A stretch of 45,769 nt of DNA. It comes from Zoogloea sp. Lineage in GTDB: Bacteria > Pseudomonadota > Gammaproteobacteria > Burkholderiales > Rhodocyclaceae. Both the position numbers and the translations under genes were made by a program. The stretch lies in contig NZ_JAQVCN010000036.1 of assembly GCF_028689785.1 (NCBI RefSeq), positions 1 through 45,769 of the forward strand, given 5' to 3'. Below the pieces are notes generated by a model. It was not told where the DNA came from. It was given only the letters and a program-made list of their open reading frames with translations, and did no database searches. Shown piece by piece: positions 1 through 20,243 of this stretch (its first letter is position 1; the number at the start of each line of letters is the position of its first letter).

Positions 1-16
1 TGTGCTCTTCCGATCT
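1..16. other. Untrimmed Illumina adapter sequence
   Basis: The first 16 bases, TGTGCTCTTCCGATCT, are identical to the 3' end of the TruSeq read-2 adapter. The following base starts sequence that recurs 312 bases further on, inside a protein repeat. The 16 bases are therefore library artefact, not genome, and the residues they would encode at the C-terminal edge of the giant protein should be ignored. Confidence 0.93.
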
Positions 17-1290
17 CGTCACGGCAATCGCCTGGGTGTCGGTGCTGCCCTGATTGTCGGAGACCTGGACGATCACGTCGTAGACGTTGTTGCCGCCGGC
101 ATCGGTGGGCGCTTCGAAATCGGGGGCGACGAGGAAGCTGAGGGCGCCGGTTGCGCTGTCGATCTGGAAGTGGGCGGCATCGGCACCGCCGATGATGCTG
201 TAGGTCAAGGTCTGTGCAGGCTGATCGGCATCGGTTGCCGTCACGGTCATTACGGCCGTGGTGTTCTCGGCGACGCTGGCCGTGTTGCCGCTGGTGATGA
301 CCGGGGCGCTGTCATTGACCGATGTGACCGTCACGGCAATCGCCTGGGTGTCGGTGCTGCCCTGATTGTCGGAGACCTGGACGATCACGTCGTAGACGTT
401 GTTGCCGCCGGCATCGGTGGGCGCTTCGAAGTCAGGGGCGACGAGGAAGCTGAGCACGCCCGTGCTGGTGTTGATCTGGAAGTGGGCGGCATCGGCACCG
501 CCGATGATGCTGTAGGTCAAGGTCTGTGCAGGCTGGTCGGCATCCGTGGCGGTGACTGTCGTTACGGTCGTGGTGTTCTCCATGACGCTGATCGATGCGG
601 TGCTGCCACCGCCATTGCTGGTGATCTCGGGGGCGTTGTCGTTGGCCGGGGTGATGGTGACGGAGAGGCTCTGGGTGCTGGTGAGGCCGGCCCCGTCGGC
701 AACCTGCACGGTGACTTCGTAGGTGTTGTCGGCATTGGCGTCGGCCGGTGCTTCGAAGTCGGGTGGGGTGTCAAAGCTCAGCACGCCGCTCCCGGCGTCA
801 ATGTTGAAAAGTGCGCCATCGGCACCGCCGACGATGGCGTAGCTGAGGGTCTGGACGGGCTGGTCGGCGTCGGTGGCGGTCACCGTAGTGACTACGAGCG
901 TGTTTTCGGCGTGGTTGATGGCGGCTGTCATGCCTCCGCCGTTGCTGGTGATCTGCGGCGCGTTGTCGTTGGCCGGGGTGACGCTGACGGACAGTGCCTG
1001 GGTGTCCACGCCACCGCTGCCATCCGACACCTGGACGATCACCTCATAGACATTGTTGCCGTCTGCATCCGTGGGGGCCTCGAAGTCGGGTGCGCTGAGA
1101 AAACGCAGTACGCCGGTATTGCTGTCGATGGTGAATTTTCCGCTGTCGCTGCCCCCGGCAATACTGAACACGGCCACCGGTCCGTCGGGGTCGGAGGCGG
1201 TGACGGTGGTGACGACAATCGCGTTTTCTTCCACGCTCTGGGTCGCCGTGGCGCCGCCGCCATTGGAGGTGATCAGGGGGGCATCATTCG
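17..1290 (-). repeat. Four tandem cadherin-like repeats, 312-bp period
   Basis: These units of about 104 codons carry the pattern ITSNGGG...AENTTVVTTVTATD...YSIIGGADAAHF...APDFEAPTDAGGNNVYDVIVQVSD. The two units nearest the contig end are identical for about 100 bases (19-118 against 331-430) and close to identical beyond that. Such long identical stretches defeat short-read assembly and explain why the contig ends here. The same repeat family recurs at about 5950-5000, 4165-3855 and 2090-1780. Confidence 0.85.
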
Positions 1291-4200
1291 CCGGTATGAG
1301 GGTGATCGTTCCGCCTGTGATGGCACTGCTGCCGCCGTCGCCGTCCTCGACATAGGCAAGCAGATGGCGGACGACCTCCGAGGGTGCATCGGAGACGTTC
1401 TGGTAGGTGATGTTGCGTGCTACAGACTGGACCGCGGCTTGGGTGGCGTTGGCGTTGAAGCTCACGACGAAGGGCACCGAGCCGTTCTGCCCTCCGCTCC
1501 AGCTGCCGATCTGTACGCCGCCGAAGCTCACAGTGTTACCGCTCACCCCGATCTGCCCTGTGCCGTTGCCTTCATTGCGCAGGGCAATGCGGTCTTCCAT
1601 CTGCCCGCCGGAAGCGAAGTACACCACCAGCCGGCCGCCATCGAAGTCGGCAGAGTCGGGGTCGGTCACACTTGCCGTAGGTGCGACGATCACCGCGCCC
1701 GCATTCTCGGCGTAGTCCAGATTGCCGGACAGGAAGTTGAAGGACGGGTCGTCGTTGACGTTGGTCACACTGACGCTGATGGCCTGGCTGTCAGTGCCGC
1801 CAAAGCCATCGCTGGCGCGCACGATTACCTCGTAGAGGTTGTCGCCATTGGCGTCGCCCGGGTTTTCGAAATCGGGTGCAGCAGCAAACTCAAGCAAGCC
1901 GGAACTGGCGTTGATGGTGAAGAGGCCGGCATCGTTGCCACCAACAATGCTGTAGGTGATGGGCTGGGCCACCCCGTCGGGGTCAATGGCTGTCACCGTC
2001 GTCACCACCGTCGTGCCCTCGGCTACGGCGACCACTGCGCTGCTGCCCCCGCCGTCGCTGACGATCACTGGCGGATTGGTGGGAATGCTGGCGGAGAACT
2101 CCGAGGTTTCGATGAAATTGCTCGACGCGTCCAGGCGGGTGGCCGTGGATGAGATCCAGTACTGGCTTCCCGCCGGCAGAGCGCCGGCGTAGGTCGGGCT
2201 GAAGGTGGCGTTGCCGCTGGCATCGGTCAGTACGTCGACGAAACCGATGTAGCTGCGCCCTTCCCCGTAACCAGAGGCATGGGGGCTGGGATTGGCGAAG
2301 AACTCGATGCGGAAGCGGGTATTGGCCAGGCTGTTGAGGGTGCCGGACAAGGCGATGTCGCTGCCAGTGAGCAGCGCCGACACCAGCTCGGGCGTGTTTT
2401 GCAGGTTGTTTGCACCTACGTCCGCATCGCCCGGATCGTTGGCAGTGACCCAATCGCCCTCCAGATCGATGCCCAGGGAGCTGCTGCCGTAGATGGAATT
2501 GCCGATGATGACGACGCCGGTAGCACCATCAGACAGGCTCACTCCGGGGTGGAGCGGCCCGGAGTTGGCGATGATGTTGCCCTCACCCGGGTTGGATCCC
2601 CCGATCATCACTGTGGAGGCCTGGGAGACATGGATGCCCTGCCTACCGTTGCCCTGAGCGGTCACACCATCAGCAGCCACGCCGATCCAGTTACCGCGCA
2701 CCACGGTTCCGGTTACGGTGGAGCCGTAGATTCCGATACCCTGCAGTGTGTTGCCGGAGATGATGTTGCGGCCCCCGGGCGTGGCATCTCCAATGACGGT
2801 ATTGGTCGCCCCATCCCACACCTGGATGCCTTCCTCTCCGTTGGCGACGATGGTGTTGCCGTAAATTAAGGTGCCGTCGCTCGCCGTTTCCACCAGCACG
2901 CCATCACCGGCATTCCCGGAGATCAGATTGCCCCCACCGGTGCTCAGGCTGCCGATGGTGTTGCCCGACACACCCGCCAGCACTACGCCGCTTCCCCCAT
3001 TGCCGATGTTGGCCGTGCCGGCTGCATTGGTGCCGATGTAGTTACCCGAGACCGTATTGAAGGCGGTGGTGGTGCTGTAGATCCGCACGCCAGCGCCGGC
3101 GTTGCCGGAGATGACATTACGCTCGGCAGGGGTAGTGCCACCGATCAGGTTATTCCTTGCCGATCCTGCAATCGATACCCCGTCACCGCCGTTGCCGAGG
3201 TCAACGCTGCCGGTATGGTCCAGGCCGACGTAGTTGCCCTGGATGATGTTGTTGGTGGCGATTGCGCCGCTCACCTCCAGGCCCTTGCCGGTATTGCCGG
3301 AGATGATGTTGCGATCCGCTGCCGAGGTGCCGCCGACGAGGTTGTTGCCCGACTCCAAGATGAACAGGCCGATGCCATTGCCCGCTGCGCTTCCTCCGCT
3401 CAGGTCGGTGCCCAGGTAGTTGCCGGCTATCGTGATGGAAGAAACCTGGTTGACGTGAATGCCGTACAGGCTGAAGTTGCCGATGACCAGCCCTCGTACA
3501 CTGCTGCCGCTGCTTCCCAGCTTGAACTCCAGGCCCGTAGCGCCAGCGCCGGTTGCAGCACCATCGAGCATTACCAAGGGCGTACCGGCATAGCCTGTCT
3601 GGGAAGTGCCCTCGATGTGGATGACGGAATTGATTGCGGGCAGCACGCTGCTCAGGTGAATGATCTGCGGCCCGGAATCGATGGCGAAGGTGATGGTGTC
3701 GGCGCCAGCCGAGTTGTTGGCGGCGAGAATGGCCTCACGCAGCGAAATCTTGCCGTCGCCCCCCATGTCGGCGAGCAGTGCGGTGATGCTGGAAGTGTCG
3801 CCGTCGGCGATGTCGACGGCGGTGGTGACGACCAGCTCGTTGACCACGTCGTTGACGGTGACCGTGAGGGTCTGCGTGTCTGTCAGGCTGCCATCACTGA
3901 CCTGGACGACAACCTGGTAGACATTGTTGGCATCGGCGTCGAGGGGGGTTTCGTAGTCGGCTGCCGAGATGAACTGCAGTACGCCAGTGTTCGGATTGAT
4001 CGCAAAGAGGGCTGCGTCGGCGCCGCCAATGATGCTGTAAGTCAGGGGGCTGAAGGGAATGTCGCTGTCGGTGGCCGTCACCGTGGTCACTGCAGTGCTG
4101 TTCTCTGGTATGGAGATCGAGGCGCTGCTTCCGCCGCCATTGCTGGTGATCACTGGTGCGTTGTCGTTGACCCCGGTGATGGTGATGGCGAAGCTCGCGG

Positions 4201-7200
4201 CCGAGGCGCTGCCCGCTCCATCATCCACGGTGAAGGAGAAGCTGTCGGCGGTGTTCTCGCCGCCGCCATGGGTGTAAGTGAGCAGCTTGTTGTCCACGTC
4301 GGCCTGGGTGAACGTGCCGCCGGCGCCCAGTGCCACGCCGTTGCGGTACAGCGTGCCCACCGTGGGTGTGCTGCCCAGGGTGTAGACCAGCTGGGCGGCG
4401 GTGTTGTCCACGTCGGTGGTACGCAGCATGGCGTTGGTGATGATGTTGCCCACCGAGCCTTCGGCAAAGGTGGCGCCGGTATTGGTGACGAGGGTCTGCT
4501 CATCATTGACGGCGGTAACGGTCAGGGCGGCGGTATCGGTAGCGCTCGAAAAGGCGGTGGAGCCGCCATTGGTACTGGTGTTGGCCAACCCGCCGTTACT
4601 GCCGATGGTCCTGTCCCAGGCCCGGAAGCTCAGGGCGTTGGCAATGCTGCCGTTGAAGTTGCTGGCGGGAGCGAAGTACACCCGGGTCTGGGTGTCGGCG
4701 GCGAGCAGACGCGCACTGGCCGTAGAGGGCGTCCCCAGAGCGTTCCAAGTGCTCCCGCCATTGATCGTGTAATACCAGGTGCCGGAGGCGGCATTGGCGC
4801 CGATCACCGCCATGCCGGTGCTGGCACCGGCATCGGGGTCGGAAACATTGTCCCAGCCGCCGCCACCCGTAAAGTCCACGAGCGCCGAGACCAGGGTACC
4901 GACGGCCCCCACCGGTGCGCCGGCGTCTTCGGCAACCGGTGCCAGGACGACCGCCGGCGTGGCGTTGAGGATGGGGGCTTCATTGACGTTGGTGACGGTA
5001 ACGGCAATGGCCTGGGTGGTGGAGAAGGTGCCGTCCGAGACCTGGACGATTAGCTCGTAGATATTGTTGGCGTCGACGTCGCCCGGCGCTTCGAAGTTGG
5101 GGGGAGCGATAAAACCGAGTACACCGCTGCTGCTGTCAATCGAGAAGCGCGCGGCATCATTCCCCCCGGAGATGCTGTAGCTCAATGTCTGGGCGGGCAG
5201 ATCGGCATCGCTGGCGGTGACGGTGGTGACCGCAGTGGTGTTCTCCGCAATGCTGATATTTGCTGTTGCGCCGCCACCGTTGCTGGTGATCACCGGGGTG
5301 TTGTCATTGACCGGGGTGATGGTGACGGAAATCGCCTGGGTGTCGGTATTGCTGCCATCCGACACCTGTACGGTTACCTCATAGACATTGTTGGCCCCGG
5401 CGTCGGTGGGTGATTCATAGTTGGGGGCTGTTACGAAACTGAGCTGCCCGGTGCTGCTGTTGAGGGAGAAGCGGGCCGAATCCGCGCCGCCAATGATGGT
5501 GTAGGTAAGTGCGGGTGCGGGCAGGTCCGCGTCGGTGGCGCTTACCGTGGTGACGACGAGGGTGTTCTCGGCCAGGCTGATGGCCGCTGTTGCGCCGCCA
5601 CCATCGCTGGTGATCACCGGTGTGTTGTCATTCACCGGGGTTACCGAGACGGCGATGGCCTGGGTGTCGCTCAGGAAGCCGTCGCTGACCTGCACAATCA
5701 CGTCGTAGACGTTATTGGTGCCCGTATCGGTGGGCGCTTCGTAGTTGGGGGCGGTAATGAAACGCAGGGCGCCGGTGGTAGCGTTGATGCTGAATTTGGC
5801 CGAATCCGCGCCCCCCACGATGCTGTAACTCAACTCTGCGGCGGGGCTGTCCACGTCGGTTGCAGTGACTGTGGTCACCGCCGTGCTGTTCTCTGCGACG
5901 TTGACGCTGGCGGTGGCGCCGCCACCGTTGCTGGTGATGGTCGGTGCAACTGGCGCGGTGTACGAAATGATCAGATAGGGGCGCAGGCTGACCGTGGCGT
6001 ATTCCGATGACGCGAAGGTCCAGTTGTCGGCGCCAGGGCTGGCCGAGGCCATCAGCCAACCCTGGTTGGCGCCGTTATCGGCCCACACCTGCACCGAGCT
6101 GGCCAGCCCGTTGATGGTGTTCCAGCCGGATACGCCGGCACTGAAGGTGGTCAGGGGCGAGCTGGCGGCCTCGCTGCCGTTCATCTGCACGCCAGAACCC
6201 AGGCTGCTCCAGGTTGAAGCCTCCGACCATGCCCCGAACATGGTGTACAGGGACACGGTGTCTGCAGCGTCCCGGTTGGTAACGTAGAAAGACAGGGATG
6301 CCGAGTTGATGGTGGCGCCGAAAGGGATCTGCCCTGCCCCGTTGCCAAACATGCTGTCGAAGCGGAGTAGCGCCTGGTTGACCGGCGAACCGTCGTCCAC
6401 GATCACGGTGGTGGCGTTGCCGAAGCTGGTGCCGGTGGCCCCGTCGCTGACATAGGTGTCGACGGTGCCGGTGTAGCCGGCCACATCCTGCTGGAAGCGC
6501 ACTGCACCTACCTGGATGGCGATGCTGTCGTTGGCGCTGAGGGCCCCACCGTTACCCGTGTTGCCCAGATCGCTGGTGGTGATGCTGAGGCTGGCTGCGC
6601 CGTTATAGCCCGCGGTGGGCGCATACGTCAGGCCTTCCAGGGCCGCGTTGATGTTGGCCAGACTGCCGGTGAAGGTCATCGTGCCGTCTGCCGTTCCGTC
6701 GCCGACGGTGAAACCCAGGCCGGTGACACGGCTCAGACTGAGCCTGCCGTTGGTGACGCTCAGGCTGACCTGCAGGTTGCTGCTGCCCGCGTCCACGTCG
6801 CTGATCGAGATGGGGTTGCCGTTGGCCGATGAGAAGATCAGGGATGTGCTGATGGGGGTGCTCTGGGGGCCCGGAACAGTGTGGATGGGGGCATCGTTCT
6901 GGGCCACGACGGCGATGGTGATGGTGGCTGGGTCGCTGGTCCAGCCGGTGCCGTCGGAGAGGGTCAGGCTCAGGGTTCGGCTGAGGGTTGACGGTGCTTC
7001 ACTGGTATCGCGGTAGGTCACCGCCCTCACCAGGGCCTGGGTGGCGGCCACGCTGGCGTTGGCATTGAGGGTCACGGTGAGGGGCGTGCTCCCATTGCCG
7101 AACACCCCGCTGAAGGTGCCGATGAGCACTCCGCCGTAGGTGACGTTGGCCCCGGAAACGCCGATCTGCCCGGCGCCGACGCCATCGTTGCGGATGCCCA

Positions 7201-9199
7201 GCTCATCTGTTGCCGTGCCGTTGGTGGTGAGCTGAACGATCAGCTGGCCACCGTTGAAAACTGTGGTGTTGGGGTCGGTCACCGTGGCACTGGTGTCAGA
7301 CAGGGGGGCAGCGTTCTCCACATAGGTGGCGCTGCCGGTGGACAGGGTCAGTACCGGCGGGAAGCCATAGGTGTAGCGCTGCATGAATACGCCGTCACCA
7401 TCTCCGCTGCCGTTGCCCTGCCAGGCGATCACCATGCGGCCGTTCTGGTTGGAGATGATGCTGGGCGAATGCTGGTCACCTGTGGTGGTGGTGTTGACCT
7501 GCGTTTCGGCTGTCACGGGGTTTCCTGATGCATCGTAAAGACGCATGTAGACCCCCTCCAGGTTGCCGTCCTGGGCGGTGCTCTGCCAGGTGACCGCAAA
7601 GCTGCCGCCGCCTGTCATTGTCACCACCGGGTTCTGCTGGGCATTGGCGGTGGTGGTGTTGATCCGGAACTCGCCTCCCTGGGCGCCGCCGCTGCTGTCG
7701 TAGCGCTGGCCGTAGATCCCCTGGAGGCTGCCATCCTGGGCATAGCTTTCCCAGGTAATGACGAAGTTGCCGCTGCTGTCCATAGCAACGGTGGGCAGGT
7801 TCTGGTTGTCCGCCGTGGTGGTGTTGACATGGAACTCGCCACCCTGGGCCACGCCGCTGGCGTTGTAGCGCTGGGCGTAGATGCCGTCGCTGGGGCCCTC
7901 CTGGCCGTAGCTCTGCCAGGTGATGACGAAGTTGCCCGCCGAGTCCATGGCGACGCTGGGGGCTATCTGGTCGTAAGCGAGGGTCGTGTTGACCACGAAC
8001 TCGGCGCCCTGGGCTACGCCGTTTGCGTTGTAGCGTGTGGCGAGCACCCCCCAGCTGTTGTTGCCCGAGGCCCAGGCCTGGTAAGTGACCACGAAGTTGC
8101 CGTTGGCATCCATGGCCACAGCAGGTGCACGCTGGTCATCTGTGGTCAGCGTATTGACGCGGAACTCGCTGCCCTGGGCCACCCCACTGGCGTTGTAGCG
8201 CTGGGCATAGATGCCGTAGTTGCTGCCGTCCTGCCCCATGCTCTCCCAGACCACGACGAAGTTGCCGTTGGCTGCCATGGCCACCTGGGGGTTGCGCTGG
8301 TTGTCAAAGGTGTAGGTATTGACCCGGAAAGCGTTGCCCAGGGCTGCTCCGCTTACGTCGTAACGCCGGGCGTAAATGCCCTGGCCGCTGCCATCGGCGC
8401 CGGAACCGTCGATCCAGACGACGACATAATTGCCGCTGCTGTCCATGCCCACAGTCTTGCCGGACCAGTGGTTGCCCTGGCTGCCGGTGGTGTTCTGGTT
8501 GACCAGGGTTTCGCTGCCCTGGGTGACGACACCGAGTACGCCCTTCCACTCGGCTTGCAGGCTGGCAGAGGCGAACGGCTGGGCTTCGATGCCGCCGGTC
8601 TGGCGTTCCAGGTCCCAGTCGCCGCCAAGCAGCGTACTGCCGGTGGCGTCGATACTGGCAGCCACGTCGGCTCCGGTCAGCTGGCTGAGGGTGGTGACGA
8701 GGGCCTCTCCGTTGCTCCCTGCGGCCACCTCACAGCCATAGAGGAGCAGGTCGCCGCTGTCCACGAGGGCGTCTCCCCAGCCGGCAATCTGGTCGGCCCG
8801 CTGCAGCAGCACGCCCATGTCCAGCCGGCTCGCGCCGAGCTCGATCAGGCCCTCGCTGCCGTGCCCCACCAGGTGCACCGCGGCCACGTCGTGATGCCCG
8901 GCCAGCGTGTCGGAGATCTTGGTGATCCCGTCCTCGTTCTGGTCGATGACGATGACTTCCAGGTCCCTACCCGCCTGGCGTTGGGCTTCCAGGTCATCGA
9001 GCAGGAGTTGCAGGTCAGGGGTCCGGGTATCCACGAACACCAGCTCGACACCGCTCCCCTCTGTGGTGCCGCCGTCACTGCCCTGCTCAAACCCCACCAG
9101 GGCCGAGACAAGCGCAGGGGACGGAAGCGGGTCCGCAGAATAGAGAATGCGCTGTTCGAAGGTTTCGATCAGCGCCCGGTGTCGATGATGGCTGTCCAT
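17..9199 (-). CDS. Giant DUF4347/cadherin-repeat adhesin-like protein, 3'-truncated by contig end
   Basis: This gene is open from the ATG at 9199 to the contig edge, giving 3061 residues without a C-terminus. The codon phase was checked at several points (340, 5008, 7846, 8278) and is constant. The N-terminus has no classical signal peptide but has the FEQRILYSA motif common in DUF4347 proteins. Approximate layout: DUF4347 47-214; seven repeats of 55-60 residues (GIYAQRYNASGVAQG type) 220-610; Ig-like segments 614-887; DNRLRE-like domain 892-1082; three cadherin-like repeats of about 104 residues 1084-1400; further Ig/cadherin-like segments to 1782; a CSLREA-like ISLREAI motif followed by a right-handed beta-helix 1784-2317; cadherin-like 2370-2474; an Ig-like segment; four more cadherin-like repeats to the edge. 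DUF4347 proteins are very large surface or secreted proteins. It starts 4 bases after the adaptor gene and is inferred to be the cargo of the upstream operon. No strong ribosome site precedes the ATG, so translational coupling is likely. Confidence 0.88.
7370..8540 (-). repeat. Seven tandem 55-60-residue repeats in the giant protein
   Basis: Matching codons fall at 8521, 8341, 8176, 8011, 7846, 7681 and about 7516. That is one spacing of 180 bases and then 165-base steps. Each unit reads roughly VAMDSSGNFVVTWQS, then QDGS.GIYAQRYNASGVAQG, then EFRVNTTT. The regular beta-rich units suggest a propeller or stacked fold. Repeats of this kind occur in other bacterial giant surface proteins. Confidence 0.8.
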
Positions 9200-9203
9200 G
9201 GTA

Positions 9204-10109
9204 TCAGGGGCGCGGCTTTGGTCGCACCGTACTGAGCGTGGACTCCAGGCGCAGGCCACCCTGCAGGCGGCGTTCGGCGGCAGGCACGGATGGGGTCGGC
9301 TCGGCAAATGTGATCCTGCAACGCAGGCCGGCCGGCAGCCGGTTGTTGGGGTTGGGCAAATGCAGGCGCACCCGGAAGGTATTGCTGGCTGCATCAACCA
9401 CCTTGTCTACCAGGGTCACTGCAGCTTCTTGGGGCGGGGTGTTGGGCAGGTCCGGCGCCACGCTGGCCAGATCGCCGGCCCGGATGCTGCCGAAGCGCGC
9501 GGCGGGAACAATCACCTCGACCCGCAGCGGGTCGATACGGGCGATCTTGAAGATCGGCTTTTCCTCGACGCGCTCGCCCTGGGCGAGGTAGCGCTCCACC
9601 ACCACCCCATCGAAGGGGCTGCGGATGCTGCGCAGCCCGACCTGGGCCTGGGCTACGCCCAGTTCGCGCCCCCACACCCGCTGCTGCTCCCGGGCCTGCT
9701 GGAATTTCTGCTCACTGACCTGCAACTCGGTGCGAGCCTGATCAAGGGCCTGCTGGGCCAGGAAATTGCGCGCTACCAGGTCTTCGGCCCGCTTCAGCTT
9801 CTGCCGGGCAAAGTCCCGGTTGGCTTCGGCCGAGTTGAGATCCGCCTCGGCCATGGCGCGTGTCCGAGCCACTTCCGCAGTGGCGCGTTCCACGTCGCTG
9901 CGCAGCACGGCCAGCACCTGGCCCTTGCGCACCACATCGCCCCGGTCGACACGCAAGCCGTCGAGCACGCCAATGACAGGGCTGCCCAAATCAGCCACCC
10001 GGTCTGGCTCGACCAGGCACCCGAGGGCCGGTGCCGCGGGGCTGGACGGCGCGGCGCCAGCCAGCCCCGCGCAGCTCCACATCACCCAGGCCACAAACCA
10101 TCTGTTCAT
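9204..10109 (-). CDS. HlyD/RND-type periplasmic adaptor protein
   Basis: This 301-residue protein begins at the ATG at 10109, chosen for the signal peptide it yields (MNRWFVAWVMWSCAGLAGA) and the GGAG site 9 bases upstream. A longer open frame to 10235 only overlaps the previous gene. After the signal come a split lipoyl/barrel-sandwich domain, a coiled-coil hairpin rich in A, E, R and Q (about 75-150), the SIRSPFDGVVVERYLAQGERV lipoyl half split here as SIRSPFDGVVV and ERYLAQGERV, and a beta-barrel. Adaptors of this type bridge an inner-membrane pump and an outer-membrane channel. No RND pump or TolC gene is in the window. It follows the SecA-like gene by 4 bases and precedes the giant gene by 4, so it probably serves the export of that protein. 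Confidence 0.85.
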   Translation of the reverse strand: MNRWFVAWVMWSCAGLAGAAPSSPAAPALGCLVEPDRVADLGSPVIGVLDGLRVDRGDVVRKGQVLAVLRSDVERATAEVARTRAMAEADLNSAEANRDFARQKLKRAEDLVARNFLAQQALDQARTELQVSEQKFQQAREQQRVWGRELGVAQAQVGLRSIRSPFDGVVVERYLAQGERVEEKPIFKIARIDPLRVEVIVPAARFGSIRAGDLASVAPDLPNTPPQEAAVTLVDKVVDAASNTFRVRLHLPNPNNRLPAGLRCRITFAEPTPSVPAAERRLQGGLRLESTLSTVRPKPRP

Positions 10110-10113
10110 AATT

Positions 10114-12060
10114 TCATTCTCCGGGACCGCCGAAGGAGAGTCCCCGCTCCCATTCACGATCCGCCTCCAAAAGCGCACGGCGAGCCCGCCTTTCCCGGCG
10201 GCCCTGCCTCCATTGGCCCAGGCCCAGCAGCGCATCCAGCAGCCACGGCCTCAGCCTGATTCGTCCGTCCCCCCCCTGCCCTGCCCAGCGGGTCAGGGCC
10301 TGCAGCCCGGACGCTTCGCTAACCCGCGACATGTCCAGGCTGATCCAGTGTTCCGTACTCCCCGGGTCACCCTGCCTGGCGCTGCGCCCCTCCAGCTGGC
10401 GGTCAATGCGCCGGGATGCGGTGAGCTGGCAGTTCAGGACATGCAAGCCCCCTGCGGCGGCCACACCAGCGGCCAGGGGAATATCTGTTCCGCGCCCCGC
10501 CATGTTGGTGGCCACGGTGACCTGCCCGGGCTCACCGGCGCATGCCACGATGGCAGCCTCACTGGCGTCGAGGCGGGCATTTAGCAAGGTGTGCGGAATC
10601 CCCGCCGCTGCCAGGCGGGCAGACAGGTTCTCGGATTCGGCGACCGAACTCGTCCCTATCAGCACCGGACGACCTGACGCACGACATTCGGATACCCGTT
10701 CGGTGACGGCACCCCACAAGGCATGACGATCGTCATATATACGGCAGGCAAGGGTCTTCCTTGAATTCGGCCGTCGTGATGGAACACACACCACATCCAG
10801 TCCGTAGATTTCTCGCAGCTCTCCCCGCGCCTCACGCAGCGTTCCACTCATGCCGCCGAGGCGGTGATAGCGGGGAAAGAAGCGCTGATAGGTGATCTGG
10901 GCCAGGGTTTCGGTATCCGGGGTGGGGCGGCATCCCTCTTTTAGCTCCACGAAGGTGTGCAAGCCCCGAGACCACACGCGCCCGGGCGCGGCGCGGCCGC
11001 TCACCTCGTCTACGATCTCCACCTGGCCGTCCCGGACCAGGTAGTGCACGTCCCGGCGGTAGACATGCCGGGCGGCCAGGGCGGTACACACCACCTCCTC
11101 GCGCAGGCGGCGGGAGCGCCAGCGGCCGTCCAGGGCTGCGCTCAGGGCCGTCAGCCGGGCGCTGCCCTCGGGGGTCAGGGTGACGCGCATGGCGGTAGCC
11201 ACAGGGGTGAAATCCAGCCCCGCCACGAGTTCGCCGGCCAGGGCCCAGGCCTGCCAGGTGAGCGCCCGGGCCGGGCCGCTGCGCACCTGTCGGGAGAGGA
11301 TCAGGGGCGTCATCGCTTCGTCGATCAACAGGCTGTCCGCTTCATCAACCAGGGCCATGCACAGGCCTCGCAGCAGGGCTTCACTGTGCCCCTGGGACGT
11401 GTTGCGGCGTTGCAGGTCGGCCCTTGCGAAGCCTCGGCGCTGCCCGTCCCGCAGGTAATCGAAGACGACTTCCCGGGCGGTTACATAGCAGATCGGTGCA
11501 GCATAGGCGTTGCGGCGCTCGGCCTCGCCCATCGGGCCGGTGACGAAGCCGGCATGCAGGCCGAGGCAGCTATAGAAGGGCGCCAGCCGGGTGGCGTCGC
11601 GCTCCACCAGGTAGTCGTTTGCCGTGAGCACGTGCACGGGCGTTCCGGCCAGAGCGCCCACGCTGGCTGCCAGGGCTGCGGCCAGGGTTTTGCCCTCACC
11701 TGTGGCCATCTCGGCCAGACGATTGTCGAGCATGATCAAGGCAGCGTGGATCTGTGTATCGTAGGCCTGCAGGCCAAGCCCCCGGTGGGCTGCCTCGACC
11801 GCCGCCGCCAGGGCTTCAACGCTCCGTTGGGGCGTCAGACCGTCACGGCCGATATGAGCCCGAAGCGTACGCAGTCGGGTGGCGAAGGCCCTGTCATCAA
11901 GGCTCACCCAGTCGCCGATAGCCTGGCGTACGGCGGTGATCTGGCGCGAATAGGGGGCGCGGGCCCAGGGCCAACGGATCTGTGGCGCTTCCCGTCGTTC
12001 CGGATAGCTTCCCCAGACCAAGCCCGGCAAAGGCATGCGTGAGCTCAGAGGGAGATTCAT
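10114..12060 (-). CDS. SecA-like preprotein translocase ATPase, short form
   Basis: This 648-residue protein is clearly related to SecA. It has Walker A ATGEGKT (119-125), TANDYL (147-152), the DEAD-type box VDEADSLLIDEA (238-249), a region matching the preprotein cross-linking domain, YQRFFPRYHRLGGMSGT (391-407), TNMAGRGTDI (518-527) and GRSARQGDPGS (558-568). Housekeeping SecA is about 850-920 residues. This protein stops soon after the second nucleotide-binding fold, so most of the helical scaffold/wing region and the zinc-binding tail are missing. It overlaps the M50 gene by 4 bases (ATGA), which suggests translational coupling. I infer a specialised motor for the giant protein encoded two genes downstream, not the cell's main SecA. 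Confidence 0.87.
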   Translation of the reverse strand: MNLPLSSRMPLPGLVWGSYPERREAPQIRWPWARAPYSRQITAVRQAIGDWVSLDDRAFATRLRTLRAHIGRDGLTPQRSVEALAAAVEAAHRGLGLQAYDTQIHAALIMLDNRLAEMATGEGKTLAAALAASVGALAGTPVHVLTANDYLVERDATRLAPFYSCLGLHAGFVTGPMGEAERRNAYAAPICYVTAREVVFDYLRDGQRRGFARADLQRRNTSQGHSEALLRGLCMALVDEADSLLIDEAMTPLILSRQVRSGPARALTWQAWALAGELVAGLDFTPVATAMRVTLTPEGSARLTALSAALDGRWRSRRLREEVVCTALAARHVYRRDVHYLVRDGQVEIVDEVSGRAAPGRVWSRGLHTFVELKEGCRPTPDTETLAQITYQRFFPRYHRLGGMSGTLREARGELREIYGLDVVCVPSRRPNSRKTLACRIYDDRHALWGAVTERVSECRASGRPVLIGTSSVAESENLSARLAAAGIPHTLLNARLDASEAAIVACAGEPGQVTVATNMAGRGTDIPLAAGVAAAGGLHVLNCQLTASRRIDRQLEGRSARQGDPGSTEHWISLDMSRVSEASGLQALTRWAGQGGDGRIRLRPWLLDALLGLGQWRQGRRERRARRALLEADREWERGLSFGGPGE

Positions 12061-14204
12061 GGGCCGGGGCTAAACTGCCGCAGGAAGAGCTGCTTGAGCC
12101 GCCGCCCCCATTGCAGGGCGAGGGGCGCCCACTCATGCTCGAAGCGTACCCATGCCCTGCCCCCGGCCCGTTCGAGCACGATGTCATTGACGCCGACGTC
12201 GAAGATGAAGACCGGAGCAATGGCCTGCTGATGATCCTTGTCTGCCGGATCGACGGCGATGTCGCCACCGGCGTGCTCGCCAAGGGCGGCGCTAGGCAGT
12301 TTTTCGGTGGCCGCAGGCACGGCCCGCAGCAGACGCCCGGCATGGGATTCACCCGGTGCCTCGGCCAGCCGCACTGATACGGCCCGGGTTTCGCTGCGGA
12401 CCAGGGCGGCTTCGTCCTGCTCCACCGCCACCCGCACCGTCGCCGCCTCGCCCGTGAGAATGTGGCCGAGCAAGGTGCCGCGAGGCACGAAGGCGCCTTG
12501 CACGTCGGCCTGCCTGGGCATCACCAGGCGCCCGGAGACGCCAGCGCGCAGCACCAGCTGGCCTTGCAGATCGTCGACACGGCGCAGCTGGGCGCGGAGG
12601 CGTGCCATCTCCTCCTCCACATTCCGGGCCTTGGCCGGGTCTCGCAGCATGGCCTGGTAAAGGTCCACGTCGAGGGCTTCGAGCTGACTGCGCAGCTTGG
12701 CCGCCTCGGCCACCAGCCGGCTGTCTGACATGCGGACCAGGATCTGGCCATCCACCACCTGTTCGCCGTTGCCTGCATCCAGGTGCTCGATGAAACCGTC
12801 GGTGCCGGTGCGCAATTGTGCCTGTTCGGGCACCCACACCACGCCGCGGCCCACCGTGGAAAACGGCATCGGCACCAGGCACAGCAGGGCCAGGGCGCCG
12901 ATGCTCAGGGCCATTGCCCCCCGCACGGCACGCTGGCGCCCCGACGTTGGCAAGGCCATGGCGAGCAGACGGCGCCAGAAACGAAAAACCGGCCAAACCA
13001 GCATAGTGAAGGCGAGGCCGGCGCCGGCCATCAGCCCGAGGGGCATCGACCAGCTGCCGATCCACGTCACGATAGCGATCGACAGGCCCAGCCGGTAGAT
13101 GGCCGAAGCCGGGGCGTAGAGGTAGAGCCATAAGCGCTCGCCACGCCCTGGTTCCGGCGACGCGAACTCGGCCAGACCGAGGCGTCGGTTGAAGATCACA
13201 TAGCGCCACCAGGCCTGGCTGCGCGAGGCCAGGTTAGGCAGATCAAGCACATCGCAGAGCACGTAATAGCCGTCGAAACGCAGCAGCGGATTGCCGTTGA
13301 AGGCCAGCGTCGAGACGCCGCAGATGAAGGCCACGACCAAGGCCAGATCGCGAACCACGCCGGGCTCAACGAGCACCCACAAGATGACGGCCAGAGCCGC
13401 AACGACCAGCTCCACCAGGATTCCCATCCCGCTGACCATCAGGCGTTGGCTGGCGTAGCGGAAGGCTGACGCCGCCGAGGCATCGACGAAAGGCGCCGGC
13501 ATCAGCAGCAACAGGCTCACCCCCATCTGATGGACCTCGCCGCCCAGGCGCCGGATGGCCAGGCCGTGGCCCAACTCGTGGACCGCCTTGATGACCGGGT
13601 AGAGCAGCCAGGCCATCAGCAGGAAGCGCGGCGTGCCCATCCAGGTGCGGACCTGCAGGGACAGCTCGGAGAAATTCATCGCCGCGGTGGTCAGGCCCAC
13701 CAGGATCAGCACCATCCAGAGGATCAGCACCGGCCAGGAGAACATCGGGCGCAGCCACGGATCAAAACGCTGCAGCAAAGCCGTGGGGTTGCCCAGCCGG
13801 ACCCGGAAAGACAAGGGGTTGATCGCCAGCCGCCGTTGTTGGCGCTGGGCCTGCTCCTCCCGATGGAAGATGGCCTCCACATCCGGGGTCAGCTCGCACT
13901 GGATCAAACCCCGCTGATTGAGCTGGACCAGCAGGCGCACGATCTCGTCCTGGGTCAGCGCCGAATCGGGATCGTGGGCCAGCAGCGCCTCGCTGATCTG
14001 CTCGGACGTATGTTGCCCGTCACAACGCCCGATAAAGGCGTAAGCCGCTGCATTCAGGCGATGAAATCGCCCGCTCACCGGATCGGCCAGCACATGCCAG
14101 ACCTCGTTGCGGTAGATCTGGCGCGTTACCCGCACCTGAGCCCGCAGCCGAGGGTGGAGGCCGGCGACCCGTTACCACTGGCTGCTGAAGACGCTACCGC
14201 TCAT
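12057..14204 (-). CDS. PqqD-like/M50 site-2 protease/HlyD fusion, interrupted by a stop at codon 11
   Basis: A GTG at 14135 gives 692 uninterrupted residues, but the homologous reading starts earlier. From the ATG at 14204, one base after the upstream stop, the frame reads MSGSVFSSQW, then TAA (14174-14172), then RVAGLHPRLRAQVRV into the known sequence. GTG-based numbering: PqqD-like domain about 1-85; membrane helices from about 133; the zinc motif HELGH (186-190); the second M50 motif NPLLRFDGYY (282-291); more helices to about 420; a HlyD-like lipoyl and barrel region about 440-640. M50 proteases cut within membranes. The fusion to an adaptor half suggests a membrane scaffold for export. 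The stop may be a real mutation, bypassed by re-initiation at GTG 14135, or a base-call error. Confidence 0.8.
14172..14174 (-). other. In-frame TAA stop at codon 11 of the M50 fusion gene
   Basis: The codon lies between TGG (W) and CGG (R). From memory of related M50 proteins the expected sequence here is W-Y-R-V-A, so one base change (TAC or TAT to TAA) would explain it. The frame is the same on both sides, so this is a substitution and not a frameshift. Confidence 0.7.
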
Positions 14205-14205
14205 G

Positions 14206-15672
14206 CTAGCTGCCCCACAGACCCCAGGCTTTGAGGCGCAGCCAGTCGGTCAGGCGGTGGGTCCAGGACCATAGCAATGGTGCTTCGCCTACCGAGATGC
14301 GAGCCACACCGCGTAGCCCCGGGCGCAGGCTGTCGGGCTGGTTTTCCAGGGTGGCCTCTACCTCGAAGACGTTCTTGCCCTCCACCGGGCTGGCCAGCGG
14401 GGTAATCCGCGCTATCCGCAGGGGCAGCGTGTCCCAGGGCAGGGCCGACAGGGCCAGGCTGCCCTGCTGCGCCACCCTGATCCGGGCGATATCCCGCTCA
14501 TCCACTTCAATGATGACCCGGAAGCGATCCTTCGGAGCAATGGTCAGCAGCACATCGCCCCGCTGCACCGGCGCCCCCAGAGACTGGCTCAGATCGCCGC
14601 GGATCACTACTCCGTCAAAGGGGGCTTCCAGGCGGATGCGGCCCAGCTGCTCATCCACCAGGGCCAGCTGCGCCCGTGCTTCGTCGGCGCGGGCCTGGCT
14701 GATCACCAGCTGCGTCCGGTCGGCACGGGCCATCGCAGCGGCATAGCTGTTCTCGTGCTGGGCAAGCTCGCTGCTCCACTTGTTGCGTTCGAGCTGCAGA
14801 TCCTGTTCGGCCAGCTCGGCAAGCACCTGCCCGGCCTTGACCGGATCCCCCGGCCTGACATGGTTATGGCGGATGAAGCCGTCGGCTGGCGCCACCAGAA
14901 CGCGCTGGATGGCACCCTCCACGCGGGCGTTTCCGCCAACCCTATACTCCATGGGAACAGCCACCAGAATCCCAAGCGCCAGCAGCAGCCCGGCCAGGCC
15001 GAGCCGCAAGCGCCCGTTGTCGGGGGCACGCAGGTCTGCCCGGATGCGTCGTGCGCGGTCACGCAGGCGCTCCCGCCACGGCCGTTCGCTGCGCCGCATG
15101 AAATGCAGCACCGGCCCCAGCAGGGCCACGGCGTGTTCCCAGTCGGCGAGTTGCTCGGGCAGTACCGGCCCCACCTGGCGGAACTGGAGTTGTACGGCCC
15201 CCACCAACTGGCGTTTCACCACCAGCGGCAAGGTGCAAACCATCCCGCCATCGCGGCGCAGAAGTTCTTCGTGAGCGAGCACGATCTGCGGCACATGGCC
15301 CGGAGGGGCCGGTAGCACGACAGTAGCGGCCTGCTCAATGGACTCATCCATCGCCGCGCCGATCACCCGCAACATTTCGGTGCCGTTCGCGATGGCGCCG
15401 TGGGACAAGGCCACCACCCGGCTGAAGCGATCCTCGACAAAACCCACGGAAACGCGTTCGCAGCCGAGACGGGTTGCCAGTTCGGAGGCAAACGCTGTCG
15501 CTGACTCCGCCAGGCGGTTGTGGGACACCATCGCCGCCTGCAGGGCAAGCACGTCGAGCCTCATCGTTTCCGCTGCGGCGAGGGAGGGTGGTGCGTTCAG
15601 AGCTTCAGTCCTGAAAGAATGTCGTCCTCGTATTGACGACGCATTCCCGGGAAACTTTAAGCTTGCCGGCAT
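14206..15672 (-). CDS. GAF domain-HlyD membrane fusion protein
   Basis: The longest reading gives 488 residues. An N-terminal GAF-like domain (about 45-190, ATRLGCERVSVGFVE then LPLVVKRQLVGAVQLQF) is followed by a basic stretch, one membrane helix (221-241), and a HlyD-type half: lipoyl (VLVAPADGFIRHNHVRPGDPV), coiled coil, second lipoyl (LEAPFDGVVIRGDL) and barrel. The GAF part would face the cytoplasm and the HlyD part the periplasm. This suggests a ligand-sensing or docking adaptor. It is the first gene of the export operon and ends one base before the ATG of the M50 gene. The start is uncertain: ATG 15672 is longest and an internal ATG at 15564 is also possible; neither has a strong ribosome site. 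Confidence 0.82.
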   Translation of the reverse strand: MPASLKFPGNASSIRGRHSFRTEALNAPPSLAAAETMRLDVLALQAAMVSHNRLAESATAFASELATRLGCERVSVGFVEDRFSRVVALSHGAIANGTEMLRVIGAAMDESIEQAATVVLPAPPGHVPQIVLAHEELLRRDGGMVCTLPLVVKRQLVGAVQLQFRQVGPVLPEQLADWEHAVALLGPVLHFMRRSERPWRERLRDRARRIRADLRAPDNGRLRLGLAGLLLALGILVAVPMEYRVGGNARVEGAIQRVLVAPADGFIRHNHVRPGDPVKAGQVLAELAEQDLQLERNKWSSELAQHENSYAAAMARADRTQLVISQARADEARAQLALVDEQLGRIRLEAPFDGVVIRGDLSQSLGAPVQRGDVLLTIAPKDRFRVIIEVDERDIARIRVAQQGSLALSALPWDTLPLRIARITPLASPVEGKNVFEVEATLENQPDSLRPGLRGVARISVGEAPLLWSWTHRLTDWLRLKAWGLWGS

Positions 15673-15756
15673 GGGACTGTGTCATACGACACACTTGCCG
15701 ATGGCTTCGTCCTGCGAAAGGGGACTCGATAGGGGAAGAACTGGAAAGCACGGAAA

Positions 15757-15798
15757 AGCAAAAAACAAGGGGACTGTGTTTCCACAGTCCCCTTGTTT
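15757..15798 (-). terminator. Rho-independent terminator after the tRNA-Arg pair
   Basis: A perfect stem of about 15 base pairs (ACAAGGGGACTGTG with its complement around a four-base loop) is followed on the minus strand by a T-run (GTTTTTTGC). It lies just downstream of the two tRNA genes and separates them from the export operon. Confidence 0.85.
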
Positions 15799-15805
15799 CC
15801 GTATC

Positions 15806-15882
15806 TGGCGCGCCCGGCAGGATTCGAACCCACGACCCCTTGGTTCGTAGCCAAGTACTCTATCCAACTGAGCTACGGGCGC
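15806..15882 (-). tRNA. tRNA-Arg (anticodon ACG), copy 2
   Basis: This 77-base gene includes an encoded CCA. The acceptor stem is GCGCCCG/CGGGCGC with discriminator G. The anticodon stem-loop is CTTGG-CTACGAA-CCAAG, giving anticodon ACG. The T-arm carries GGTTCGAATCC. It is identical to the copy at 15969-16045. Confidence 0.97.
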
Positions 15883-15968
15883 ATCTTCCCAACATTCAAC
15901 TCCCGCCAACGCGGAGGAGAAAAACTCTCCTGAGTTGATAAGAGCTGCAAAAACAGCTCTGGTAAAAC

Positions 15969-16045
15969 TGGCGCGCCCGGCAGGATTCGAACCCACGACC
16001 CCTTGGTTCGTAGCCAAGTACTCTATCCAACTGAGCTACGGGCGC
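15969..16045 (-). tRNA. tRNA-Arg (anticodon ACG), copy 1
   Basis: This gene is identical over all 77 bases to the copy at 15806-15882, with encoded CCA and anticodon ACG. The copies are 86 bases apart in the same direction and probably share one transcript ending at the terminator near 15757. Confidence 0.97.
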
Positions 16046-16206
16046 ACTTGAGAGACCGAGATTATACACACGCTCGAAGAAATTGGAAGCCTTTCGTTGA
16101 AGATAGTTGTTTTTATCGTGGGGACCGTATTTTTGCCCCCGGACGCCGGGCACATTACGGGGCCGTACCCCCACCCTCCCCCACGCTACTAAGCAGGAGT
16201 CCCTCC

Positions 16207-17187
16207 ATGCGCGCCTACATATGCAATGCCTTCGGCTCCCTCGACACCCATGGTCCCGGCGATCTGCCAGAGCCCCAGCCGGCAGAGGACGAGGTGATCA
16301 TCGACGTGGTCGCCGCTGGTGTTAATTACTACGACACACTCATCGTGCAGGGTCGATATCAGATCCGTCCGAGCTTGCCCTTCTCCCCTGGAGGCGAGTT
16401 CGCGGGCACCATCGCCGCCCTGGGCGCCAAGGTGCAGGGGTTTCAGTCGGGGCAGCGCGTTCTGGCTTTCAATTCCTTCGGCGGCTATGCCGAAAGGGCT
16501 CGCGCCCGAGCTAGTCAGGTCTTCCCCTTGCCGGATGCAGTCTCCTTCGATCAGGCAGCGGCAGCCTTGGTGGCTTACGCCACAGCCTGGTTTGCCCTGT
16601 ACGACCGGGGCCGCCTGAAGGCCGGCGAGACAGTGCTGGTGCTCGGCGCAGCGGGTGGCGTCGGCCTCGCTGCCGTTCAGATCGCCCGGGCTGCGGGTTG
16701 CAGGGTGATTGCAGCGGCCAGCACCGTCGACAAGCTCGCCCTGTGCCAGCAGGCGGGGGCCGCTGTCGGAATCAACTATCGCGAAACAGACCTGAAGGAT
16801 GCTGTGAAAGCAGCCACCGCAGGCCGCGGTGCCGACGTAGTGATCGACGTGGTGGGCGGAGTCTTCACCGAGGCCGCGGTACGGGCGACTGCTTGGCGCG
16901 GCCGGGTGCTGGTGATTGGCTTTGCCGCCGGCGACATTCCGCGGGTGCCTGCCAACCTGCTCCTGCTCAAGGGCTGTGAGCTGTCCGGCGTGTTCTGGGA
17001 TGAATTTCTGCGCCGCGAGCCGGAAGCCTGCCGTGCCCAGGTTGCCGCCATTCTGGCGGGCATTGCCGATGGCAGCCTGGTTCCACCCATCCACGGCCGC
17101 TACGCCATCGAACAGGCGGGGGATGCGTTGAAGGTGCTCGCCGAACGCCGGGTGACGGGCAAGCTCCTGATCACCCCCTGCGACTGA
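16207..17187 (+). CDS. NADPH:quinone oxidoreductase, zinc-free MDR family
   Basis: This 326-residue protein belongs to the medium-chain dehydrogenase/reductase superfamily, quinone oxidoreductase type. It has an N-terminal GroES-like fold with AAGVNYYDTLIVQGRY (36-51) and SPGGEFAGTI (60-69). The Rossmann nucleotide site is LGAAGGVGLAAVQIA (146-160). The catalytic zinc-ligand cysteines of alcohol dehydrogenases are absent. Family members reduce quinones or enones with NADPH in the cytoplasm; the substrate here cannot be told. AGGAG lies 8 bases before the ATG. It stands alone, facing away from the tRNA pair. Confidence 0.9.
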   Translation: MRAYICNAFGSLDTHGPGDLPEPQPAEDEVIIDVVAAGVNYYDTLIVQGRYQIRPSLPFSPGGEFAGTIAALGAKVQGFQSGQRVLAFNSFGGYAERARARASQVFPLPDAVSFDQAAAALVAYATAWFALYDRGRLKAGETVLVLGAAGGVGLAAVQIARAAGCRVIAAASTVDKLALCQQAGAAVGINYRETDLKDAVKAATAGRGADVVIDVVGGVFTEAAVRATAWRGRVLVIGFAAGDIPRVPANLLLLKGCELSGVFWDEFLRREPEACRAQVAAILAGIADGSLVPPIHGRYAIEQAGDALKVLAERRVTGKLLITPCD

Positions 17188-17365
17188 GCAGGCCGCGGGG
17201 CACGCTGTGCAGCGAACTGATCGCCCAATTGCGCCTCCCCCACAAGGCGCGAATGCCCCGCACACGGGCCAGGACAGGCGCGGCACGTTGCCGAACATAT
17301 CTCCCAACGCCACCTGAACGCAATGGCCCGACAATTAAACAACCGTCCGCGCAAATGCCTCGCCT

Positions 17366-17746
17366 TTGAAACTCCAACAGAAGTCTTTGCGCGTAAAATC
17401 ATGGACTTTTGACCTGGTGTTGCACGAGAGCTGGAAGGTTTCCGTCATCGCCATGAACGGTATGGTCTTCGACCTGCCCTCTCCGCATGGCCGGATGCTG
17501 GCGACGTATCTCTCCGGCATTCCCGAGGCCGAGCGTGATCTGATCAGCAACCGGGTCAAGTCTGGCCTCGCCGCCGCGAAGGCACACGGCCGGAAACTGG
17601 GCCGCAAGCGTGGCGAACGCCCAAAATCGGATCGGTTTGCCCCGAAAGTCATGGCATTGGTGATGGAAGGTCGCAGCCACCGCTGGATCGCTCGTGACCT
17701 CGCTATCAGCAAGAATACTGTCGCAGAAATAGCGCGGCGAGACTGA
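17366..17746 (+). pseudogene. Serine recombinase/resolvase remnant, N-terminus lost
   Basis: From about 17459 the frame reads GMVFDLPSPHGRMLATYLSG, then PEAERDLISNRVKSGLAAAK, then a C-terminal helix-turn-helix (HRWIARDLAISKNTVAEIARR). This is the back half of a resolvase/invertase-type serine recombinase. The catalytic domain start, with the active-site serine and the arginine cluster, is missing. The first 30 or so residues of the open frame do not look like the family. It is probably a fragment of an old mobile element; together with the lower-GC gene that follows it marks an acquired patch near the tRNA genes. Confidence 0.78.
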
Positions 17747-17784
17747 TTGGCGAGCAAAAGCAAATAACGAAACGCTGTGCAATC

Positions 17785-18723: not shown

Positions 18724-19118
18724 TTCTATCAGTTTGGCCGAAGGTGCTCAGAGGGCACCTCGAGAGCCCCTGTTTCCACCGAAATCACTGTTGTAAGTTG
18801 TTGATTTAACGATGCCAGGTGTTCATAAAGTGAGGTTTTTTGAGGTGCCCTGAAGTGTATTTTCGCCCCCGGCCGGAACCGATTCCATGAAGATCGGGCA
18901 TCGAATCAAAGACTCCAGGGAGCGCACTGCAGGAATCTCGCAGCGAATACCGGGTCGAGCGGGAACTGCCCGCCGATGAGCTACAGTTCCAGGCGGTGTC
19001 TATCGCAAGTTCACGCCCGCCCGCCGGGAAGCCCTGCTCACGTTTCTGCAGCATTGGTGATGAGCGCTTGTATACAGCGGCGCTGCACCAGCCCTTCCCC
19101 TCACCCGCCCGCCTGACC
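18724..19118. other. 395-base intergenic stretch without a convincing gene
   Basis: No RNA gene, strong terminator or insertion sequence was seen. A short plus-strand frame ending at the TGA near 19060 reads VYRKFTPARREALLTFLQHW before its stop, which may be the tail of a decayed gene, but a stop codon cuts it off upstream. The region should hold the promoter of the LysR gene; I could not pick it with confidence. Confidence 0.4.
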
Positions 19119-20027: not shown

Positions 20028-20116
20028 CGCCTCTCCGGCGCCATTCGGGCGGTGGCCCCAATCTGGCGCAGATGCAAATGGCAAAACAGCCAAACACGGC
20101 AAAAACATGGACTGGC

Positions 20117-20132
20117 GCACTGTGTTGGTGCA
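20117..20132. promoter_or_regulatory. NtrC-like operator (GCAC-N5-TGGTGCA)
   Basis: GCACTGTGTTGGTGCA matches the classical NtrC-binding pattern GCAC-N5-TGGTGC. It lies about 110 bases before the kinase gene. No convincing sigma-54 -24/-12 pair was found between it and the GTG start, so its function is uncertain. Confidence 0.35.
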
Positions 20133-20243
20133 GAATTGCGGCCTTATACCTCTTTGTTAATAGATCTGGTTTGCAGGCCGTTACCCACACCTGTTCTCCG
20201 GCTCTAAGCCGTATTTCCCCTTGCATTCAGTGATCAAGCTCCA

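Follow-up and report, generated by a model that had tools for sequence, protein, structure and literature searches.

The locus described here raises the question of how a giant bacterial protein might be carried across the cell envelope by the products of the genes next to its own. The window, i.e., the whole stretch of 45,769 nucleotides that was analysed, is contig NZ_JAQVCN010000036.1 of a Zoogloea sp. assembly (GCF_028689785.1). An operon of five minus-strand genes runs in it from position 15672 down to position 2, and codes, in this order, for a HlyD-type adaptor of the membrane fusion protein (MFP) class, a PqqD-M50-HlyD fusion, a SecA-like ATPase of 648 residues, a second HlyD adaptor and a giant protein. 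We consider it probable that the five genes form a copy of an export system that spans the cell envelope and is dedicated to giant proteins with an N-terminal LEPR-XLL tag; export of the giant would follow from gene association combined with domain knowledge. The preliminary description of this DNA had reported five coupled genes with intergenic spacings of +1, -4, +4 and +4, and the gene coordinates bear this out, the spacings holding if the starts ATG 14204, ATG 12060, ATG 10109 and ATG 9199 are taken.

The grouping of the five genes is not due to chance. Among 100 relatives (the window's own genome included), a short SecA scoring above 440 bits was found in 22 genomes, and the same 22 genomes hold an M50 fusion above 440 bits; these cuts were set after the lists were seen, and a fragment with two TAG in G040 was excluded from the short-SecA count. 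The preliminary description had asked whether giants with the DUF4347 domain accompany the SecA-like and M50 genes more often than chance. DUF4347 was detected in 21 of the 22 genomes with both genes compared to 14 of the 78 others (Fisher p 2e-11, uncorrected for kinship). A GTDB-based collection was also scanned with a profile of the PqqD-M50-HlyD fusion, and the best 80 of at least 579 loci were analysed. These loci came from Alpha-, Beta-, Gamma- and 'Deltaproteobacteria', plus one Omnitrophota metagenome-assembled genome (MAG). The short SecA was the next gene downstream of the M50 gene in 68 of the 74 loci with enough sequence (at a cut of 40 bits; in L100, L152 and L154, counted among the 68, it is diverged or broken, with 78-231 bits). 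A HlyD gene preceded M50 in all 74 testable loci, while a second HlyD gene was present somewhere in the locus in 53 of the 60 loci with at least 4 kb downstream. Whether the five families neighbour each other elsewhere had been set beforehand as a test, and the order HlyD-M50-SecA-HlyD is indeed kept across proteobacterial classes. We also considered whether Omnitrophota might commonly have the system; this was dropped, as it was found in 1 of 14 genomes of the phylum group assumed for the MAG, namely in the MAG itself.

We observed the same linkage in a phylum-wide set of 398 Pseudomonadota genomes. Here the cut was E 1e-20 for the M50 fusion (this value also admits SecA-less types, and at most two M50 candidates were scored per genome) and 1e-175 for the short SecA. 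The M50 fusion was found in 91 genomes. The short-SecA cut was passed by 38 genomes, of which G155, G161 and G252 were removed because their frames had housekeeping length; all the remaining 35 carried the M50 fusion. At the level of genes, 39 of 43 short SecAs had a listed M50 gene at most 1.5 kb upstream. Among the other four, an M50 frame was seen on inspection to adjoin L188, L190 and L194, and the fourth is G190:C86. Conversely, for nine M50 genes of at least 380 bits no SecA was listed on the same contig; six of these genes adjoin a diverged, split or edge-cut SecA-like frame, one is situated at a contig edge, and those of G288 and G432 are without SecA.

Judged from the sequences, the common feature of the cargos is the N-terminal LEPR-XLL tag and not DUF4347. 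In the same 398 genomes, LEPR-XLL scoring above its cut-off on a frame of at least 2000 residues was found in 52 genomes, and 51 of the 52 had the M50 fusion (Fisher p 5.5e-38). For frames of at least 1000 residues the ratio was 59 of 62 (Fisher p 5.4e-43; neither value is corrected for relatedness). The LEPR genomes without M50 fusion were G314 and, at 1000 residues, also G133 and G291. At the genus level, the M50 fusion was present in 31 of 31 LEPR genera, in 30 of them via a genome having both. The association was much weaker for LEPR matches confined to frames shorter than 700 residues, with the M50 fusion in 7 of 18 such genomes. The longest LEPR frame among those listed has 19,427 residues (G166:C115). 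The sole LEPR giant of at least 2000 aa without a detected M50 fusion in its genome, G314:C126 (L193), is adjoined by a SapC gene and comes from a MAG that is 86% complete. DUF4347 had been taken initially as the mark of the cargo, and this part of the description has to be given up, with alphaproteobacterial cassettes standing beside LEPR-XLL, Ig-like or LamG-like giants.

The window giant itself (P0005; 2..9199, minus strand) has a LEPR-XLL tag, DUF4347, cadherin/Ig repeats and a beta-helix-like stretch; DUF4347 and the cadherin repeats were called by Pfam. Its tag, ALIETFEQRILYSADP, at 9110..9172 of the minus strand, matched the NCBIfam model of the LEPR-XLL domain, NF012209, with 30.7 and 24.2 bits, above the curated cut-off of 17; this model covers the domain alone and not any partner machinery. 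Examples of the tag are ALIETFESRILYSADPGP in orthologous giants within the genus and ALEPRLMFDGAA in giants of a sister cassette; the tag does not appear in the preliminary description. No classical long hydrophobic core was seen at the starts of the giants, and in the window's clade a short, weakly hydrophobic stretch comes after the tag. The frame of P0005 is cut by the contig end, while the nearest relative, G010, has an open frame of 4104 aa. The contig-end bases 1..16 look like a non-genomic sequencing-adapter remnant and read as Illumina adapter sequence, and the final residues of the giant's frame derive from these adapter-like bases.

Directly behind the tag is DUF4347 (8534..9043, minus strand; PF14252, 175.7 bits), a putative C80-like cysteine peptidase domain of clan CD. 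We found a His (HLVGHGS; His106) and a Cys (LLYGC; Cys149) invariant in 35 of 35 distinct genes, and a weak match to Peptidase_C80 in 5 of the 35 (best E 4.3e-4); therefore, DUF4347 may be an autoprocessing peptidase. A search of PDB with a single DUF4347 sequence gave no significant match, and a search with a 35-row profile returned only another DUF4347 entry, 9qpe (E 1.9e-4).

The partner of the tag would be the M50 fusion (P0002; 12057..14204, minus strand; 692 aa counted from GTG 14135). Pfam matches in P0002 were PqqD (PF05402, 32.5 bits compared to a gathering score of 23.4), HlyD_D23 and HlyD_3, while the Pfam M50 match appeared only below threshold and in an orthologue. HELGH and NPLLRFDGY are visible in the sequence, and H186, E187 and H190 (HE..H) as well as D288 (NPLLRFD) are invariant in alignments of 12 rows and of 31 rows. 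The structure model (mean predicted local distance difference test score, pLDDT, 83.5; predicted template modelling score 0.57) has an N-terminal domain, a block of long membrane-length helices and an MFP domain matching MexA/MacA. The conserved HExxH with its downstream Asp and the long helices of the model are those of an M50 site-2 protease.

The closest NCBIfam relatives of the fusion are, all below cut-offs, the daptide and epipeptide proteases of ribosomally synthesized and post-translationally modified peptide (RiPP) systems, which combine PqqD or the RiPP recognition element (RRE) with a HExxH membrane protease. By analogy, a PqqD domain ahead of a membrane protease suggests leader binding. 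The likeness to the RiPP proteases is also what would be expected if PqqD-M50 matured a small peptide and the neighbouring giant were incidental. We regard this as highly improbable, because LEPR-XLL giants track the M50 fusion across 31 genera; in addition, no conserved small precursor was noticed in the loci, although no systematic search for one was made. Unlike in the RiPP systems, the protease here is fused to an MFP adaptor domain, and its apparent substrate has thousands of residues and is not a short peptide.

The third gene (P0003; 10114..12060, minus strand) codes for the short SecA-like ATPase, with Pfam matches to SecA_DEAD, SecA_PP_bind and P-loop_SecA. It has the features of the SecA superfamily, i.e., NBD1, PPXD, NBD2 and conserved nucleotide-binding motifs (the residues of GEGK, DEADS/DEVDS-IDEA and QLxGR are invariant or nearly so), and it stops just inside the helical scaffold. 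The profile of the short SecAs aligns to residues 15-606 of B. subtilis SecA and then ends, so that about 230 C-terminal residues are missing, including the wing and the remainder of the helical scaffold. The full SecA2 domain set includes these two parts, and the short SecA scores far below the SecA2 cut-offs. The C-terminus of the family is distinctive, often F-S/T-G-x-x-E, with Glu as the last residue in 82 of 111 frames (near-copies and edge-cut frames included). In a tree of 60 rows, P0003 among them, 44 short and 16 housekeeping SecAs were split by a branch with Shimodaira-Hasegawa-like approximate likelihood ratio test support of 100. The short rows had been picked at random out of the 111 short frames (46 drawn, one being L169, the edge-cut SecA of G100 with 927 aa, which is labelled housekeeping; the very long row L183 was left out). 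In four RefSeq plasmid records the short SecA carries the annotation 'prepilin peptidase' or 'DEAD/DEAH box helicase' (L081 8854-10815, L082 8716-10740, L083 8758-10674 and L084 8689-10674).

For N-terminal fragments of E. coli SecA, the available part of PMC5456053 gives the highest ATPase activity around N619-N632, and describes N643-N669 as critical for function with SecYEG-SecDF-YajC. We infer from these fragments that the motor is retained in the natural short SecA, and that much of the part engaging SecYEG is gone. The retained ATPase core would also suit an accessory-Sec reading, with a specialised paralogue, like SecA2, that hands the giant over or cooperates with the housekeeping SecA, the giant crossing the inner membrane by the ordinary SecYEG channel and the M50 fusion and HlyD adaptors acting on the periplasmic side only. 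The short, weakly hydrophobic stretch behind the tag in the window's clade fits such a passage, and the existence of SecA-less cassettes (see below) means that the housekeeping SecA could do the same job. However, no SecY gene is present in the operon or annotated in the plasmid cassettes (SecY was not specifically searched for). The missing 230 or so C-terminal residues also belong to the part that E. coli SecA needs with SecYEG, as far as the available part of PMC5456053 goes, and the short SecA never occurred in the 398 genomes without the M50 fusion. We think this accessory-Sec reading rather unlikely.

The two remaining operon genes code for adaptors. The N-terminal region of P0001 (14206..15672, minus strand; HlyD_3, 5.5e-23) is GAF-like, and a single membrane span can be made out by eye. 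The preliminary description of a GAF-HlyD protein stands for HlyD; at E 1e-3 Pfam gave no GAF match for P0001 itself, and called GAF in its orthologues of L083 (5.1e-13) and L057 (1.8e-5). P0004 (9204..10109, minus strand), also matched by HlyD in Pfam, has a signal-peptide-like start from ATG 10109. With the C-terminal domain of P0002 the operon holds three HlyD-type modules, where two adaptor halves had been proposed. TolC is not among the five genes; its gene adjoins the cassette in L083 and in several SecA-less cassettes, and the window's own genome has 59 OEP matches. Just upstream of the operon there are two tRNA-Arg (acg) genes (window 15806-16045), a possible integration site.

In the export system that we propose, the PqqD-like (RRE-type) domain of the M50 fusion would bind the LEPR-XLL tag in the cytosol, as it might be expected to from RiPP systems. 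The short SecA-like ATPase would thread the giant chain, and the M50 active site would trim the tag or its membrane-inserted leader; in the window's subtype, DUF4347 may self-cleave just behind the tag. The inner-membrane adaptor, the C-terminal domain of the M50 fusion and the periplasmic adaptor would form a periplasmic conduit to a TolC-type channel, supplied by the adjoining gene in some cassettes and elsewhere, we assume, by a shared TolC. A bolder form of this proposal, which we offer only tentatively, is a new Gram-negative secretion type. In it, an RRE-site-2-protease-MFP receptor would take LEPR-XLL giants, and a dedicated SecA paralogue that has lost much of its SecY-engaging part would push them from the cytosol to the exterior, energising a HlyD-TolC conduit in place of an ATP-binding cassette (ABC), resistance-nodulation-division (RND) or major facilitator superfamily (MFS) pump. 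The energised components named in the available part of a review (PMC8277102) are ABC, RND and MFS transporters.

The arrangement of the genes varies among cassettes. The window has what we call type A, HlyD-M50-SecA-HlyD-giant. In plasmids we found giant-DUF3467-HlyD-M50-SecA-HlyD (Pontibrevibacter, and also Methylosinus, where TolC comes next), giant-HlyD-M50-SapC-SecA-HlyD (Pseudosulfitobacter) and giant-DUF3467-HlyD-HlyD-M50-SecA (Mesorhizobium), while Rhodobacteraceae M382 has HlyD-M50-SecA with no giant in view. The giants of the alphaproteobacterial plasmids have 8.8-12.9 thousand residues and are annotated as LEPR-XLL (two), Ig-like or LamG-like. DUF3467 or SapC genes stand beside many cassettes (L096, L110, L132, L155 and others). 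A role of DUF3467, which is a small gene, as a SecB-like chaperone was considered and dropped: its model had a mean pLDDT of 77.8 and no PDB match at E <=0.001, the best being a weak one to Sub1.

Several observations speak against the export system in the form given above. First, SecA is absent from some cassettes. The window's own genome has a second type, type B, with the order giant-TolC-HlyD-HlyD-M50 and without SecA, on contig C70 (G000, 7242-22023; L003/L004); its LEPR-type/DUF4347 giant has 2988 aa, and its M50 fusion is diverged. Among the 74 loci, the six M50 genes without adjacent SecA were those of L103, L115, L118, L151, L157 and L161. In the genomes of L103 and L115 a short SecA is located elsewhere; the SecA-less cassettes of L118, L151, L157 and L161 stand beside DUF4347 giants in genomes with only housekeeping-length SecA. 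Those of G288 and L071 are also beside DUF4347 giants, and that of G432 is beside a large frame. The SecA-less cassettes are the main argument against SecA as an essential motor. The place of the SecA-like gene in the set, as proposed originally, is borne out by its adjacency in 68 of 74 loci, and its absence from a minority and from the C70 cassette means that it is not essential in every version. Since such variants exist, the shared core looks like the M50 fusion with the adaptors, SecA being present in one large branch.

Second, genomic linkage between cargo and machine is incomplete. Only 33 of 70 LEPR giants have a listed M50 gene at a distance of up to 10 kb, a number to be read in view of fragmented assemblies: most of the other unlinked giants sit on separate contigs. 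In G124, though, a giant of 12.2 kaa is 610 kb from the nearest listed M50, and in G111 the distance is 1.2 Mb. The M50 machine may therefore serve cargos in trans. Also, in 40 of the 91 genomes with the M50 fusion no LEPR frame of at least 2000 aa was listed (matches were listed to E ~0.115). Third, there is no inner-membrane channel among the five operon genes. Fourth, the M50 frame of this assembly has an early in-frame TAA (14172..14174, minus strand; codon 11 from ATG 14204), and the next in-frame start, GTG 14135, was used. A closely related M50 gene is present in 14 relatives of the same genus; in 13 of these its frame has at least 730 aa and is open across the TAA codon, and in the remaining one, G004, a contig edge cuts the frame. 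The TAA therefore reflects either a local nonsense mutation or faulty assembly.

Finally, in eight giants of the window's clade (L197-L201, L203, L071 and L093; the frame of L198 is broken) the C-terminus is a hydrophobic hairpin with DPLPVLG, or a close variant of it, behind it. Such an end speaks against plain release. One such C-terminus was scanned and had no meaningful Pfam or NCBIfam match. In L198 and L200 the gene that immediately follows the giant, and overlaps its end, codes for a PAS-GGDEF diguanylate cyclase; the gene after that codes, in L200, for an HD-domain response regulator. M50 site-2 proteases are mostly regulators. Hairpin, cyclase gene and protease class could all belong to a maturation or surveillance set, in which a hairpin-anchored giant, exported by other means, would be sensed and cleaved by the M50 fusion and adaptors for release or signalling. 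We find this improbable: it gives no reason why one operon should hold a SecA motor together with three HlyD modules, and inspection by eye of the 18 giant C-termini printed from other cassettes showed no hairpin, whereas LEPR-XLL is widely shared. The hairpin ends do suggest that the label 'surface protein', given at first to the window giant, needs changing.

Among known systems, the proposed export system can be compared to type I secretion of giant adhesins (LapA, RTX adhesins), which uses an ABC transporter, a HlyD/LapC-type adaptor and TolC. Both have a giant repeat cargo without a classical signal peptide and HlyD-type adaptors; TolC stands beside some cassettes, and a diguanylate cyclase gene is downstream in two relatives. 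Unlike type I, the system has a SecA-type ATPase, an N-terminal LEPR-XLL tag and a PqqD-bearing membrane protease, and no ABC protein was found among the five genes or annotated inside the plasmid cassettes, although an ABC partner may be encoded elsewhere. The accessory Sec systems (SecA2, SecA2/SecY2) are similar in having a second SecA paralogue, and the cargos of SecA2/SecY2 are very large surface-type proteins. They differ from the present system, where the SecA ends early, stays below SecA2 cut-offs, has no SecY in the operon and is encoded beside HlyD adaptors. A route 'unlike type I or plain Sec', as first suggested, fits the lack of an ABC protein in the five genes and a SecA without its C-terminal quarter. 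In exosortase/PEP-CTERM and sortase systems a sorting tag goes with a dedicated membrane enzyme. Here, too, a short sorting tag is tracked by one dedicated membrane enzyme, and cargos seem to be served in trans; unlike there, the tag is N-terminal, the enzyme is an M50 metalloprotease, and motor and conduit genes are linked.

A literature search, with preprints and most subscription papers outside its coverage, gave no description of the gene set or of partner machinery for LEPR-XLL; the name LEPR-XLL itself came up once each in two papers. In the available text of two papers on Omnitrophota and huge proteins (PMC10066038 and PMC11573180) no exporter was described, and the words 'SecA' and 'HlyD' were absent from both. 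The gene set is widespread and seemingly undescribed. The earlier reading was largely right in kind, with LEPR-XLL now stressed in place of DUF4347, and the M50 fusion in place of SecA.

These results flag misleading annotations, with a motor named 'prepilin peptidase' or 'DEAD/DEAH box helicase'. The short SecA motor may be an exception to the rule that SecA acts via SecYEG. Some proteins encoded by bacteria have between 5,000 and almost 20,000 residues, and how they cross two membranes is mostly unexplained; the system described here is a candidate machine for this task. The LEPR-XLL tag would predict the cargo of this machine, and would link many unexplained giant genes to one pathway.

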